46,301 bases of DNA from Richelia sp. SL_2_1 (lineage in GTDB: Bacteria; Cyanobacteriota; Cyanobacteriia; Cyanobacteriales; Nostocaceae): positions 1-46,301 of the forward strand of contig JAAUSO010000038.1 of the NCBI GenBank assembly GCA_012033205.1. The letters are read 5' to 3'. The notes under the pieces are model-generated. The model worked only from the letters and a program-made list of their open reading frames with translations. It was not told the origin of the DNA and did no database searches. Position 1 is the first letter of the stretch. The number at the start of each line of letters is the position of its first letter. Made by a program: the position numbers and the translations under genes. Of the stretch, positions 11,119 to 16,633 are shown piece by piece.

Positions 11119-12045
11119 TTAAACTGGTTCGGCGGACATTATGCTGGCAAGTAAAGCTTTTTGGACGTGAAGTCGATTTTCTGCTTGTTGCCAAACTCGC
11201 GAATGTTGTCCTTCAATAACAGCATTTGTGATTTCTTGATCGCGATGTGCTGGTAAACAGTGTAAAACAATCGCTTTTGGGTGAGCAAAACTCAACAATT
11301 CCTGATTAATTTGATAGGGTTTGAAAATTGGCATTCGGTTTTCTGCTTCTTTTTCTTGTCCCATACTTGCCCATACATCAGTATAAAGTATATTAGCATT
11401 CTTCGCTGCGTTTTCGGGGCTTTTGGTAATCATAACTTGACTTTTTCCATTTGCGATCGCAGAGGCTTGTTTGAGGACATCTGGATTCGGTTCGTAACCG
11501 CTGGGGGTGGCAATGTTCACATTCATTCCTACTAAAGCACACCCCAACATCAGGGAATTTGCAACATTGTTGCCGTCACCGACATAAGTTAAAGTTAAAT
11601 CTTTGAAAGTTTGGAATTCTTCTTGAATTGTCAATAAATCAGCTAAAACTTGACAGGGATGCTCCAAATCTGTGAGGGCGTTAATGACTGGAATCTGGGC
11701 ATAATTTGCGAAGGTTTCCAATTCTTGTTGTTCAAAGGTACGAATTGCCAGGCAGTCGAGATATTTATCTAATACTCTGGCAGTATCTTCAATTGGTTCT
11801 CCGCGACTAACTTGAGTAACATTAGGATTAAGGTCAATAACTTGTCCACCTAATTGGTACATTGCCACGGTAAAACTTACCCGTGTTCTAGTGGAGGCTT
11901 TAGAAAATAGTAGCCCCAATACTTTATTACAGCGCAATTTCAATTTTTGTGATTTTAATTGAGTTGCCATCTGCAAAAGTTCTTCAATTTCTACTGCGCT
12001 CAAATCTGCTATGCCTAATAAATCTCGTTGACTTAACGCTGTCAT
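11119..12045 (-). CDS. argF: Ornithine carbamoyltransferase
   Basis: This cytoplasmic enzyme makes citrulline from ornithine and carbamoyl phosphate in arginine synthesis. The 308 residues carry the carbamoyl-phosphate site KASTRTRVSF, the second site HPCQVLADL, and the ornithine-binding and catalytic HCLPAHR near the C-terminus. This last motif separates it from the paralogous PyrB found later in the window. The ATG at 12045 gives the standard N-terminus (MTALSQRDLLGIADLS). The gene stands alone, with lexA downstream on the same strand across about 230 bases. Its product links to the arginine-degrading enzyme encoded at 37480. Confidence 0.97.
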   Translation of the reverse strand: MTALSQRDLLGIADLSAVEIEELLQMATQLKSQKLKLRCNKVLGLLFSKASTRTRVSFTVAMYQLGGQVIDLNPNVTQVSRGEPIEDTARVLDKYLDCLAIRTFEQQELETFANYAQIPVINALTDLEHPCQVLADLLTIQEEFQTFKDLTLTYVGDGNNVANSLMLGCALVGMNVNIATPSGYEPNPDVLKQASAIANGKSQVMITKSPENAAKNANILYTDVWASMGQEKEAENRMPIFKPYQINQELLSFAHPKAIVLHCLPAHRDQEITNAVIEGQHSRVWQQAENRLHVQKALLASIMSAEPV

Positions 12046-12059
12046 GCTTTTTAATGATG

Positions 12060-12392
12060 TTTAGGAACAATTAAGTGTTACGTTTTTTCAATTTATGCGA
12101 ACATCTTTCAAGAACCCTGAAATATTCCGTTGTTCGGTGAAATGCTCGCGATAATACAAGATTAGAATAACTGTAAATTTGGATTTTTTTGATATTTAGG
12201 ATTATTTCTCTATTACAATAACTGTGCTTTCAGACTTGGGTAAATCACTCTCTAGGCAGAGAAAATTATTGACATAATCTGCTTGTTTGATTTGCATGGC
12301 AAGTCAAGGGCTTTCTGTAGGTTAACTGATAACTGAAAAAGGTCTTTACAATATGATTTTTTCTGGTATAATTGCAAAATAGTGTGACTATT
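12060..12392. other. Intergenic region between argF and tRNA-Thr
   Basis: About 330 bases hold no gene that I can see. They should contain the argF promoter (reading left) and the tRNA promoter (reading right). Confidence 0.4.
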
Positions 12393-12464
12393 GCCAGCAT
12401 GGCTCAGTGGTAGAGCAACGCACTTGTAATGCGTAGGTCGTCGGTTCAAATCCGACTGCTGGCT
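12393..12464 (+). tRNA. tRNA-Thr (anticodon TGT)
   Basis: It folds as a full cloverleaf: acceptor GCCAGCA/TGCTGGC, D arm GCTC-AGTGGTAGA-GC, anticodon stem CGCA/TGCG with loop CTTGTAA (anticodon TGT), and T arm GTCGG-TTCAAAT-CCGAC. CCA is not encoded. The gene is intact although a transposon-like end lies 31 bases downstream. Confidence 0.97.
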
Positions 12465-12495
12465 TTTGGATAGTAAGCGTATTTTTTTTGGCTTA

Positions 12496-12896
12496 TGTAC
12501 ATTTCTACACTGCCAGATTAATTGTCGCCGTGACAAATTGTTGTCGTCGAAGCATTGGTGACAAATTAGTGTCGTCGAGCTTAATCACCAATACTCACAT
12601 TTTAACTCACTTCGATGGCATCGGAAGAAGGAAGAGGGAAGAGAATCGAGCGGGGAAACTACTTCATAACTTCTCCTCGCTTCGGGGTTAAAGTCCCCTG
12701 AGTCATAGGTTGCATGAAATGCGTTGGGGTTTAAATCCCCATAGACTATCCAACATATCCCTCTTCCTTCTTCCTTCAACATCGGTTTTTAATACATATG
12801 CTATTTAAAACACAGCCTAATTCGGTTATGTGCGATAATTTTCTGTGCTGACCTACTTAATTTGTGAAATAGCGACATCTAATTTGGGAATGTACA
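12496..12896. mobile_element. Miniature element with type V-K CAST (Tn7-like) ends, next to tRNA-Thr
   Basis: The left end begins TGTACATT at 12496. It is followed by three direct copies of a TnsB-type site: TGCCAGATTAATTGTCGCCG (12511-12530), TGACAAATTGTTGTCGTCG (12531-12549) and TGACAAATTAGTGTCGTCG (12559-12577). The right end, read inward on the minus strand, also starts TGTACATT (12896) and has CAAATTAGATGTCGCT and CACAAATTAAGTAGGTCAG as inverted sites (12848-12890). Terminal TGTACA and TGACAAATT...TGTCGTCG repeats are the hallmark of cyanobacterial Cas12k transposons, which insert beside tRNA genes. The 401-bp interior has no cas12k, tnsB, tnsC, tniQ or CRISPR array, only GAAGGAAGAGGGA inverted repeats and GGGGTTTAAATCCCC-type hairpins. 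The flanks (GCTTA and CCTTC) match at only 3 of 5 bases, so a clean target duplication is not seen. I read it as a non-autonomous or internally deleted CAST remnant. Confidence 0.7.
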
Positions 12897-13115
12897 CCTT
12901 CAGTATCTGATAGGTCGCGTTTTTTCATTTCGATGACGGCGAGTTTTTCACCATGAAAAACCAGCAGATAATTAGCGATGTCTGCTTGAGCGCCCTGATT
13001 TTTAGTTCCCTTTCTCCGGCGATAAAATTTATCTACAGTCGAATTTATCGTGTAATCACTGAAGCACGATCACATCTTTTTCAGCGATATTATTGGGTAG
13101 GATGGCATTTGCATG
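12897..13115 (-). pseudogene. Decayed N-terminal fragment of a type I restriction HsdR-like protein
   Basis: On the minus strand, broken reading frames spell fragments such as QGAQADIANYLLVF, then after a one-base shift HGEKLAVIEMKKRDLSDTEG. This is the nuclease-fold N-terminus of HsdR-type DEAD helicases, including the conserved AVIExK and the LSDTEGV that leads into AQAK in intact relatives. Stops and frameshifts break it upstream as well (after NNIAEKDVIVLQ). The similarity ends exactly at the TGTACA of the CAST-like right end, so the gene was either cut by that element or lost its remainder with it. No HsdM or HsdS gene is nearby. Confidence 0.5.
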
Positions 13116-13216
13116 AATAAATCGACTAAAAGTTCCCGATTTTCGCCAAAAAGAGGAATTTGTTCCGAACATTGCCTACTTACAGAATTATCAAAAATAT
13201 ACAGGAAGCATCAATT

Positions 13217-13795
13217 ATGAATAATATTTACGGATATTATGTCGATAAACCTCTCAGCCAAGACCAATTGACATTAAAATTTTCGCCTTGTTCAATTCCC
13301 ATCAAGGATCGTTGGAGAAACAACGGATTATCCGCAGATTTTATGGCTGATTATCTCGCCACTTTTATTCCCAAAGATGATTACGAGCCTAGCACCATTC
13401 AACGACAGGAAGAAGTCAAAAGTGCTGCCAGTTATATTGCTAATGAGTTACTAGAAAACTCGATGAAATATTGCGATTATGGTGCAAAATTTTCCATTAG
13501 CATCCAACTCCAACTAGATGCGGATCAAATTCGTTTTTTTGTGACTAATAGTATCGCTAAAGCTTCGATCGAACCATTCAAAGCATTCATCGAACAAATG
13601 ATCAATTCTGACCCCAGCGAATTGTATTTCCAACAATTAGAAAAGAATGCAGAAAATCAAAATAGTACCGCATCGGGACTCGGATTGCTGAGTATGGTAA
13701 ATGATTATTCAGCAATGTTGGGATGGAAGTTTGAAACAGTTTGCGAGAAACCAGAAATTATTGCTATAACAACAATGGTGCAACTCACCTTCTAG
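13217..13795 (+). CDS. Anti-sigma-factor-like ATPase (RsbW/Slr1861 type)
   Basis: This is a 192-residue HATPase-fold protein of the kind that phosphorylates a STAS partner in partner-switching pathways. The N-box SYIANELLENSMKY (about residues 75-88) and the glycine-rich lid region SGLGLLSMVNDYSAML (about 154-169) are visible. The start at 13217 has GGAA about 9 bases upstream and the family-like N-terminus; an upstream reading from 13160 overlaps decayed HsdR DNA and is less likely. It is followed by a STAS protein and an IcfG-like phosphatase in the same direction, the same trio as around icfG (slr1860) of Synechocystis. Its partner is therefore likely to be the neighbour. Confidence 0.8.
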   Translation: MNNIYGYYVDKPLSQDQLTLKFSPCSIPIKDRWRNNGLSADFMADYLATFIPKDDYEPSTIQRQEEVKSAASYIANELLENSMKYCDYGAKFSISIQLQLDADQIRFFVTNSIAKASIEPFKAFIEQMINSDPSELYFQQLEKNAENQNSTASGLGLLSMVNDYSAMLGWKFETVCEKPEIIAITTMVQLTF

Positions 13796-13887
13796 CATGA
13801 ATTGAATCAATTTTGGACGTAGATCAATATAAAAATTAACTGAAAAATCTTGCACTCTATCTATTTACTGCTGTTTGGCTATTAATT

Positions 13888-14232
13888 ATGGAAATCAAAG
13901 GCGATAATTATAAAGTTTGTTACGATACCAATTCCGCAAGTGTCAATTTTCATGGTAGCTTGCGTTTAAATGGCATGACAGAATATTCACTAATTTTAGA
14001 TATGTTGACTGGTATTATTGATAGTAATCCTCCCCGGTTAACATTGAATTTAATGCATTTAGAATTTCTCAACAGTTCGGGAATTACCATGCTTTCCAAA
14101 TTTTTTATTGGGATGCGAAATAATAAAAATATGCACCTGATGGTACTCGCTTCTAATGCAATTCCCTGGCAGGGAAAACTTCTCAAAAACTTGCAGCGTC
14201 TCGTACCAAATTTAAACTTTAAAATTGTGTAA
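13888..14232 (+). CDS. STAS-domain protein (anti-sigma-factor antagonist type)
   Basis: This 114-residue single STAS domain has the typical strand-helix pattern and the loop LEFLNSSGITMLSKF, whose serines are where SpoIIAA/RsbV-type proteins are phosphorylated. It should be phosphorylated by the ATPase encoded just upstream and dephosphorylated by the PP2C phosphatase encoded downstream. It starts at the ATG at 13888, 93 bases after the previous gene. A degenerate copy of its C-terminal half lies about 100 bases downstream. Confidence 0.82.
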   Translation: MEIKGDNYKVCYDTNSASVNFHGSLRLNGMTEYSLILDMLTGIIDSNPPRLTLNLMHLEFLNSSGITMLSKFFIGMRNNKNMHLMVLASNAIPWQGKLLKNLQRLVPNLNFKIV

Positions 14233-14332
14233 ATTGAAAATAATTTAACTTTAATGATGTATTTTCGTCAGCATTGAAGGGTATATTTAAATTTATAAAT
14301 AGTCAAATTTAAGGGAAAAAGTAACCAATTTT

Positions 14333-14458
14333 ATGATTGCGATGCGAAACAAAACTATTCATCTGATGATTGTCGATTATAACAATTTTCACTGATAAGG
14401 AAAATTATTGAAAAATTGACAGCGATTAATGCCTTCAATGAAATTAAGGTTTGTTTAG
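14333..14458 (+). pseudogene. Decayed C-terminal copy of the adjacent STAS gene
   Basis: Translated from 14333, the frame gives MIAMRNKTIHLMIV, then after two stops GKLLKN, one more stop, and QRLMPSMKLRFV. This lines up throughout with the end of the intact STAS protein just upstream (IGMRNNKNMHLMVL, GKLLKNLQRLVPNLNFKIV). Three in-frame stops show it is not expressed as a protein. It is a leftover of a tandem duplication whose first half is no longer recognisable. Confidence 0.75.
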
Positions 14459-14882
14459 TTTTTTAAAATTTAATCAAAAAGACGGGATTGGAAAAATACT
14501 CATTCTATATTTTAGATTTGTCCGGGATTGAGTTATAGACTTTTAATATTCGAGTTGAATGAATAATTTCTAGCCCATATTTATACAACCCCTATTTGCT
14601 TATGAATTATCGGAATTACGGAAATATGGAATGGATATGGGGAAAATTTCACTACCATTTGGGGAAAATTTGAGAACTTTTGATATTTTTGGGAAATTAT
14701 CGGGAATTATATCTCTAAACCAGATTAAATAATCAATTTTCAACCATATTCTCAGTTTCCTTACTTCATGACTAACTACCGAAATAAATAGATCGCACAT
14801 CGATCAAGATTTTGGACTTGTTTATTGATCGCGAACTAATGAAATTTGGGATTTGCTTGAAACTAGTAATACAGGCAAGAGT
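14459..14882. other. Gene-free region upstream of the PP2C phosphatase
   Basis: About 420 AT-rich bases contain several GGGAAAATTT-like and GGGAATTAT-like words but no gene that I can see. The phosphatase promoter probably lies here, so it may be transcribed apart from the ATPase/STAS pair. Confidence 0.4.
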
Positions 14883-16406
14883 ATGTCTCAATCCATAAAA
14901 CCTTTTTATCTAAATATTTTTAGTGCGAAAAAATATCGTACTATTCTTCTTTCTGCGGTTCTGTTCTTGACTTTCGATTTGGGTGTACTGTTACCCAACT
15001 TTCTGATCTCCAGCAACCTCAAAAAAGATGCCGTCAGCATCAACCTGGCAGGTAGACAGCGGATGTTATCCCAAAAGATTACAAAAGCATTGCTCCAGGT
15101 AAAAGTAGCCCAATTAGCTCAAAGAGACACGGGAAAAGCCAAGCAAGAACTCGAAAAATCTTTCCAACTGTTCGACGATACCCTACTGGGATTCGATCGC
15201 GGAAAAATAGTAACAGGTGGTGATGACAAACCAGTATTCCTCGATGGAGTAACCACAACTCAAGCCAAGGAAATAATCGCCCAAGCTCAAACAATTTGGT
15301 TACCCTATAAAACCAAAATTCAATCGGTACTGGCAAGCAGCGATAATTCTCTCACAGCATCCTTGGAGGATGCAATCGTCTACACAGAAGGCAATAACCT
15401 CAAGTTGCTCGACTTGATGAACCAACTCACTACCGAACAACAACAAAGAGCCGACAATAAAGCCAATACCCTGCAAATCATCCAAACCACAGGGCTGATT
15501 TTTGCCCTGATCAACTTCTTCATCCTCCTTTCCCACAGTCTCCGCAAGTTCAAAGATCACGATATTCAAATTCAACTTGCCAGCGCGGAAATTGAAGCAC
15601 TCAACGAAAAACTCGAACAAGACAACCTCCGCATGAAACAAGAGTTGGACGTAACTCGACAAGTCCAACAAATGATTCTCCCCAGAGCCAAAGAATTGGC
15701 AGAAATCCCCGATTTGGATATTGCTGGCTTCATGCAAACCGCAAGCGAAGTTGGTGGTGATTATTACGATGTTATCCATCACGATGGTAAAGTCAAAATC
15801 GGTATTGGTGATGTTACCGGACATGGACTCGAAAGCGGAATGCTAATGCTGATGGTACAAACCGCAGTCCGGACTTTGCTAATTAACAACCAAACCGATC
15901 CTAAAATTTTCTTAGATGTTCTCAATCGCACAATTTACCAAAACATCCAACGCATGGAATTGGATAAAAATATGACCCTATCCATCCTCGACTACGAAGA
16001 TGGAAAAATGAGGATATCCGGGCAGCACGAGGAAATATTGGTAGTGCGTCGGGGAGGAATGGTGCAGCGTCTGGATACCGTCGATTTAGGTTTACCCATC
16101 GGCATGGAAGAAGACATCGCAGAATTTATCGGTTACGCGGATGTACATTTATATCCCGGCGATATGGTAGTTCTTTACACTGATGGAATTACGGAAGCTG
16201 AGAATTCCAATAAAGAACAATACGGACTTAAGCAATTAATGAATGTGATCAAAGACAATTGGGATAAAACCGCAGAAGAAGTTAAACTGGCAATTATTCA
16301 AGATTTGAGTGTATTTGCAGGGGATAGCAAACCTCTCGATGATATTACTTTGGTGGTGTTGAAGCGAAAGATTGCACCAGCGAAGGAGTTGAGTGTTGCT
16401 AGTTAA
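14883..16406 (+). CDS. IcfG-like PP2C/SpoIIE phosphatase with PilJ-type sensor domain
   Basis: This membrane protein phosphatase should dephosphorylate the STAS protein. Membrane segment 1 is at about residues 19-42. It is followed by a PilJ/type-IV-pilus-MCP-like ligand region starting VSINLAGRQRMLSQKI, membrane segment 2 at about 202-219, a coiled coil (IEALNEKLEQDNLRMKQELD), and a SpoIIE-type PP2C domain. The metal-binding motifs of that domain are present: VGGDYYDV, GDVTGHGLESG, YTDGITEAEN and DDITLVVLK. The ATG at 14883 (MSQSIKPFYL) is preferred over an upstream TTG at 14853. The architecture and neighbours match Synechocystis IcfG (Slr1860), which is involved in the response to inorganic carbon and glucose. 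The signal sensed here is unknown. Confidence 0.9.
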   Translation: MSQSIKPFYLNIFSAKKYRTILLSAVLFLTFDLGVLLPNFLISSNLKKDAVSINLAGRQRMLSQKITKALLQVKVAQLAQRDTGKAKQELEKSFQLFDDTLLGFDRGKIVTGGDDKPVFLDGVTTTQAKEIIAQAQTIWLPYKTKIQSVLASSDNSLTASLEDAIVYTEGNNLKLLDLMNQLTTEQQQRADNKANTLQIIQTTGLIFALINFFILLSHSLRKFKDHDIQIQLASAEIEALNEKLEQDNLRMKQELDVTRQVQQMILPRAKELAEIPDLDIAGFMQTASEVGGDYYDVIHHDGKVKIGIGDVTGHGLESGMLMLMVQTAVRTLLINNQTDPKIFLDVLNRTIYQNIQRMELDKNMTLSILDYEDGKMRISGQHEEILVVRRGGMVQRLDTVDLGLPIGMEEDIAEFIGYADVHLYPGDMVVLYTDGITEAENSNKEQYGLKQLMNVIKDNWDKTAEEVKLAIIQDLSVFAGDSKPLDDITLVVLKRKIAPAKELSVAS

Positions 16407-16633
16407 TTTGTGATCTTGAGCGATGGATAAATTTGAGGGGTAGGAAAGCCTATCCCATTAAGTACTCAGAATTAATTACTTCCCTATCGGCGAAACAGTC
16501 GTTACCACAAATTAATAATCAAAATTTTGTGTGACCGTTATCGTTTAAAATTATTAAGTCAAAAATCAAATACCAGCAATTAAAAAAAACAAAATTGCTG
16601 TGATTTTGAAAGTTAGTAATTATAGCAAAGAAT

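Follow-up and report, generated by a model that had tools for sequence, protein, structure and literature searches.

The 401-bp stretch at 12496-12896, directly downstream of a tRNA-Thr gene, raises the question of whether its inverted termini and repeats mark one miniature type V-K CRISPR-associated transposon (CAST) movable in trans, the residue of a single larger element, or the remains of several. The stretch lies in a 46,301-nt piece of DNA (the whole stretch analyzed, hereafter the window) from a genome of 7.55 Mb in 359 contigs (G000).

Termini and repeats of the 401-bp stretch

The 8-mer TGTACATT forms both outer edges, at 12496-12503 on the forward strand and, inverted, at 12889-12896 on the reverse strand. 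Three direct sites follow on the left: a diverged one at 12511-12530 (TGCCAGATTAATTGTCGCCG), then exact copies of TGACAAATTNNTGTCGTCG starting at 12531 and 12559, arranged as site (12511-12530), site (12531-12549), linker AAGCATTGG (12550-12558) and site (12559-12577). The right end, read inward, is TGTACATTCCCAAATTAGATGTCGCTATTTCACAAATTAAG and contains two diverged inverted sites. All of these elements are present as originally predicted.

The 8-mer alone is ordinary, with four matches in the window versus a mean of 2.15 in shuffles, so the significance of the stretch rests on its sites. The two exact copies of TGACAAATTNNTGTCGTCG are the only ones in the genome, and none occurs in 100 shuffles of the window; with up to three mismatches allowed, the pattern shows no genome-wide enrichment (19 matches versus 51 for a reversed control). 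Aligned with 58 V-K ends taken from elements of relatives, mostly with Cas12k or TnsB nearby, the best scores are 82 for the left end and 68 for the right end, whereas 100 shuffles reach at most 35 and 39.5, respectively. This alignment, made with V-K elements other than ShCAST and AcCAST, bears out the prediction that both ends are type V-K CAST ends. A chance similarity with no CAST origin would account for TGTACATT, which alone is expected about twice per window, but is scarcely credible given end scores far above the shuffles on both sides and an exact site pair absent from them. Within the window, Cas12k, TnsB, TnsC and TniQ have no match at E 1e-5, which agrees with the view of the stretch as a remnant without machinery and with no cas12k or transposase gene inside. 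The only match to known RNA families (Rfam) is the tRNA, and none falls in the 401 bp.

Ends of two different classes

The comparison ends were assigned to classes by eye from the terminal motif (one row, LE_A L108, begins 6 nt late). Class A ends carry GTGAC/TTAAC-type sites. Class B1 ends (TTCGC) accompany a distinct TnsB clade, with 72-81% identity to the G025 TnsB and 43-45% to the G056 TnsB, and class B2 ends (TTCAC) were seen in the Cas12k-bearing G100, G193 and G295. In G193 (L264-L265, contig C6), a 39-kb stretch lies between class-B2 ends, with Cas12k directly after TniQ near the right end, not the left.

In a leave-one-element-out comparison of these short ends (left 67 nt, right 41 nt), the left end of the 401 bp scores 65.5 with class A, 39.7 with B1 and 42.2 with B2, and the right end scores 67.5 with B2, 60.7 with B1 and 44.3 with class A. 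Against single ends, the best right-end scores are at most 68 (B2), 62 (B1) and 47.5 (class A). To judge from these alignments, the right end separates clearly between A and B, with B2 only modestly ahead of B1; GATGTCGCTATTTCAC is common to it and to the right end of the G193 element, which bears Cas12k. The stretch as a whole is clearly mixed: 12511-12577 (forward strand) is the inner part of a class-A left end, and 12856-12896 (reverse strand) the outer 41 nt of a class-B right end, best B2. The original prediction had paired the two as ends of one element; their V-K nature stands on both sides, but the difference in class speaks against the pairing.

The best left-end match, L121, is the left end abutting a TnsB-bearing element in G071; it has equal spacing and linker and shares GATTGTTGTCGTCGAAGCATTGGTGACAAATT with the window. 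The same site-site-linker-site layout is found in L312, L314 and the full CAST G446 (Cas12k and TnsB). All four carry further outer sites before the matching ones, which the window lacks. The predicted reading of the left sites as V-K type is retained, but they correspond to inner, not terminal, sites of longer left ends. Position 12504 (TCTACAC) was considered as a mutated class-A terminus and dropped, as inner left-end sites fit better. The outer TGTACATT at 12496-12503 possibly belongs, we infer, to a class-B left end, of which it would be the first 8 nt; the class-B2-like left end of G003 begins at +104 from its tRNA, and the terminus at 12496 lies at +103.

The same class (A or B) occupies both ends in 17 of 18 two-ended elements under leave-one-element-out comparison, an agreement that is partly built in because class-specific search patterns found most of them. 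Nine were found with the class-B pattern (G100, G193, G295, G145a, G145b, G070, G237, G212 and G074), as was the right end of G034, and the G118 miniature was found with the class-A pattern. The seven elements found without any class-specific pattern (G056, G031, G059, G048a, G048b, G025 and G118a) all agree, and G446 and G133, outside the 18, are class A at both ends by eye. The class-B pattern has no match in the control; with one mismatch allowed, the class-A pattern outnumbers its reversed control only about twofold across 291 genomes, so many of its matches are due to chance. The one mixed element, G100, is mixed by a small margin (89.7 versus 87.7), so mixed ends may occur naturally.

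A dispersed repeat in the middle

About two-thirds of the middle of the stretch consists of a dispersed genus repeat (12597-12780, borders approximate) with 17-bp perfect inverted arms (GGAAGAAGGAAGAGGGA). Positions 12601-12777 have an 84% copy at G001:C54 and partial copies in G002, G004, G005 and G007; within G000 there is no further copy at E 0.001. This repeat is not CAST cargo. A short dispersed motif (12834-12860), with 26-27-nt matches at G000:C146 and at two loci of G002, runs into the inner right-end site. Since the middle is taken up by these two sequences, the CAST-derived share is small: some 8 + 67 nt at the left end and 41 nt at the right end.

The tRNA-Thr target and the flanking DNA

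The homing target is the tRNA-Thr (TGT) gene at 12393-12464 on the forward strand (ARAGORN; Rfam tRNA, 76.7 bits), which argF (11119-12045) adjoins in the genus and in many genomes of the family. Two candidate PAMs, GTA at 12426-12428 and GTA at 12433-12435 (forward strand), lie 67 and 60 nt before 12496, and the GTA preceding tRNA offset 36 is the PAM of anchor spacers in L201, L231 and G023. V-K PAM-to-left-end distances are given in PMC9938897 as 46-82 nt, with one exception at 147; the terminus at 12496 falls within this range. An anchor spacer for the tRNA was sought as an exact match of at least 13 nt in the 2.5 kb after the window tRNA, and an GGGTTGAAAG-type repeat end within 12001-16500; neither search gave a match, and the 401 bp were ruled out as an anchor-spacer carrier. 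The exact anchor search recovered L201, L212, L215, L222, L231, G033, G023 and G070, but not L229 and G212, in which the anchor carries a single mismatch.

Flank comparison places the stretch within about 4 kb (12477-16485) that is missing from the same-genus genomes G001 and G002. Window sequence up to 12476 and from 16486 onward matches both (91-98.7% in the flanking pieces), and the interval from the tRNA to the thioredoxin region measures 84 nt in G002 and 61 nt in G001, with no CAST end in either; the thioredoxin gene of the window has a Pfam thioredoxin match. Besides the 401 bp, the extra DNA comprises a truncated hsdR and, at 13160-16406, three genes encoding a HATPase/DUF6272-like protein, a short protein with a weak SiaC match only, and a SpoIIE phosphatase. 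The hsdR piece (type I restriction; 12893-13020, reverse strand) is an N-terminal fragment cut exactly at the right end. Positions 12893-12993 match L029-L033 at 83-87% nucleotide identity; the frame reads ...KKRDLSDTEG (...IANYLLVFHGEKLAVIEMKKRDLSDTEG), then enters the transposon right end, and goes on in relatives, of which the intact L031 protein matches HSDR_N. From the exact cut, the class-B right end would once have been inserted in hsdR, or a deletion would have stopped there.

These flanks bear on an alternative in which a single CAST, its ends unusual and mixed in class, was reduced by internal deletion to a two-ended 401-bp remnant at its homing site. A single element would explain equally well why TGTACATT stands at both outer edges; the symmetry of these termini, their placement 60-67 nt after GTA PAMs, the mixed scores of G100 and the existence of other two-ended miniatures (G003, G005 and G118) all speak for it. 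Against these points stand the difference in class, the missing outer left-end sites, a right flank that is hsdR DNA and 5-nt flanks (GCTTA and CCTTC) that form no target-site duplication, the last being a weak test, as such a duplication could be read from the flanks of only 2 of 10 two-ended elements (G237 and G074). Internal deletion of one element is accordingly judged unlikely, though it is the likeliest of the alternatives. The 401 bp are instead probably a composite fossil of at least two stacked CAST insertions of different class, fused by deletion.

tRNA-Thr is a homing hot spot for V-K CASTs

The frequency of V-K insertions at this site was assessed in the 80 argF-linked loci that ranked highest in ArgF similarity among 326, of which 75 of the 80 were usable (L167, L186, L193, L198 and L202 were dropped for having no tRNA-Thr or too little sequence). 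A V-K end scoring at least 40 lies within 130 nt of tRNA-Thr in 26 of the 75 loci, versus 0 of 514 control segments (maximum 38), which marks the site as a hot spot of V-K homing. Among the end-bearing loci, L173 (score 42) is borderline; L225 (Cas12k, no end detected) and L228 (a B2-like left end 596 nt downstream of the tRNA) fall outside the 26. Cas12k or pieces of it occur in five (L201, L215, L222, L229 and L231) and are absent from the sequence examined in the other 21, which covers 9 kb after the tRNA in 16 and only 0.4-2.9 kb in five (L156, L157, L183, L199 and L227). Counts based on cas12k alone would therefore miss many past insertions at this site. Besides the window, two named loci have a right end within 1 kb, L157 (G003, 365 bp) and L158 (G005, 740 bp), in a scan with a threshold of 42 and no separate control that also gave a weak match at 4.8 kb in L223.

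CASTs at this site carry truncated-repeat anchor spacers for three protospacers in the tRNA, at offsets 20, 36 and 54-55 with PAMs GTA, GTA and GTT, respectively. In L212 and L222, only ~21-23 nt separate the GTT-PAM anchor protospacer from the left end that follows it, less than the published range of 46-82 nt. Close contact between elements is also seen: at tRNA-Thr in L201, two left ends apparently lie 104 nt from each other, and in G071 two elements abut at one TGTACA. The reading of every double terminus (L203 and L215, for example) as a nested insertion was not upheld, since the G056 flanks lack the predicted remainder, and it remains an idea.

In L190, L195 and L197, a left-end-like stretch of ~60 nt that follows tRNA-Thr is alike in all three and has no right end within 9 kb. 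The repeats of the 401 bp could in principle be kept for another role, for instance as a decoy that confers target immunity or within the region downstream of tRNA-Thr. In favor of such a role, left-end-like DNA for which 9 kb of sequence show no right end lies next to tRNA-Thr in several Nostocales, with similar copies in these three loci, and V-K CASTs seem to have target immunity (PMC11406308). For the 401 bp, this explanation is nonetheless very improbable, with the same-genus G001 and G002 having no end at tRNA-Thr at all and the ends of the stretch being diverged and interrupted. The 401 bp as a unit were found beside tRNA-Thr in none of the relatives searched; fixation at that place in genomes without any CAST would have spoken against the original prediction.

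The loci at tRNA-Thr form a natural series, from empty through full to ruined, in which a role of target immunity and of rivalry between end classes in RNA-guided homing can be looked for. It is conceivable, though unlikely, that tRNA-Thr is a stacking ground where CASTs of different classes land beside or inside each other because target immunity acts within a class only. Newcomers would then damage their predecessors and leave mixed ruins and short two-ended passengers, and the window would be a snapshot of one transposon displacing another.

No resident helper found, and miniature elements in other genomes

The original prediction also allowed for one non-autonomous, MITE-like miniature moved in trans by a CAST. 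Both termini are present, CASTs of class A and class B2 with Cas12k exist in the same family (G446 and G295), and V-K cargo bounded by two ends moves in laboratory systems if the proteins are supplied (PMC10949235). Cas12k (NF038191) has no match anywhere in G000. The TnsB search, likewise genome-wide (for TnsC and TniQ the search was confined to the window), detected a V-K-like fossil on contig C284 (65% over 34 aa and 57% over 47 aa) and four more matches of 30-43% identity, which we take to be other integrase-type transposases. The fossil lies at G000:C284:18071-18172, and the surrounding 11.4 kb contain no Cas12k, TnsC or TniQ match. As the assembly is 98.3% complete but fragmented, a helper hidden in a gap is unlikely, not impossible. 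Further copies of ~400 bp, proposed as a sign of mobility, were not found in G000, nor was a full CAST as helper: the stretch is single copy, its sole other match at E 0.001 being 27 nt of the dispersed motif. It also has no match among 72,556 plasmid or 50,697 phage records. With ends that are mismatched and truncated besides, movement of the 401 bp in trans is very improbable; the stretch shows no sign of having moved as a unit, and the claim is unsupported.

The kind of object imagined does exist, although the 401 bp are not a clean example of it. Two-ended V-K miniatures with no transposase or cas12k inside, ends at most 1 kb apart and a position beside a tRNA occur in G003 (365 bp), G005 (740 bp) and G118 (808 bp); movement has been shown for none of them. 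A literature search limited to open PMC text brought up no title concerned with natural miniature V-K CASTs, which is weak evidence of absence.

The G118 miniature (L138:8772-9579) is class A at both ends, lies beside tRNA-Ala and holds a truncated dynamin-like GTPase gene. Its flanks carry an 8-bp repeat (ATTAGAGG), not the expected 5 bp. The G118 genome encodes two Cas12k genes, and over 35-82 nt the ends of the miniature are 78-86% similar to the ends of one of the resident CASTs.

At tRNA-Thr, class-B2 ends without a transposase occur in the same-genus G005 (L057:19007-19746), G006 (L061) and G003 (L059). These loci carry a RelE/ParE-like toxin and an antitoxin; the G003 copy is shortened, and G006 has the left end only. 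In the G005 miniature, the toxin is a RelE/ParE-like remnant, accompanied by the antitoxin. Parts of the G005 element match in 101 of 217 family genomes, and 20 loci, G003 not among them, were examined. Of these 20, only G005 has B2 at both ends; in G006 the left end alone is retained, a class-B1 end is present on one side of L348 and of L349, and L344 has a weak class-A-like stretch (score 40) on one side. The toxin-antitoxin-bearing element was accordingly rejected as a mobile family.

A proposed history of the composite fossil

Under the composite reading, V-K CASTs would have homed by RNA guide to tRNA-Thr, inserting ~60-70 nt beyond a GTA PAM. What survives of a class-B element, best B2, would be its right terminus and perhaps 8 nt from the start of its left terminus, and of a class-A element the inner part of its left end. 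The simplest history would place class-B and class-A elements near each other, followed by a deletion reaching from within the class-A left end almost to the class-B right end. One or more deletions would have taken away cas12k, tnsBC, tniQ, the CRISPR array and the cargo, joining class-A repeats to a class-B right end, and the dispersed repeat and the short repeat motif would have come to lie in the middle. V-K CASTs insert replicatively, without TnsA or a resolvase (PMC11406308); repeated homing could thus leave stacked copies prone to recombination and deletion. The order of insertion, the nesting and the deletion steps are a reconstruction; the deletion itself we infer, since an unfused class-A plus class-B precursor was found in none of the genomes examined.

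The 401 bp are unlikely to transpose: the left end is missing its outer sites, and a single TnsB would not be expected to pair ends of this kind. No function is expected of the stretch. What the stretch offers is a view of how V-K CASTs may end. The wider pattern of V-K ends without Cas12k, end classes and rare two-ended miniatures is more useful than the single fossil.

Comparison with known systems

MITEs are short, non-coding elements with inverted termini. Unlike them, the 401 bp have no second copy, no clear target-site duplication and unmatched subterminal repeats. The miniatures of G003, G005 and G118 come closer, with both ends less than 1 kb apart, a position next to a tRNA and no transposase or cas12k inside; they differ in having one class at both ends, whereas the 401 bp are mixed. 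Compared with a complete V-K CAST, the stretch has mixed-class ends and a truncated left end, and no cas12k, tnsBC, tniQ or anchor spacer was found in it. It nevertheless shares with the type V-K CASTs at tRNA genes, as described in PMC9938897, the TGTACA terminus, the TnsB-type repeats, the left end facing the tRNA and a GTN PAM 60-67 nt away.
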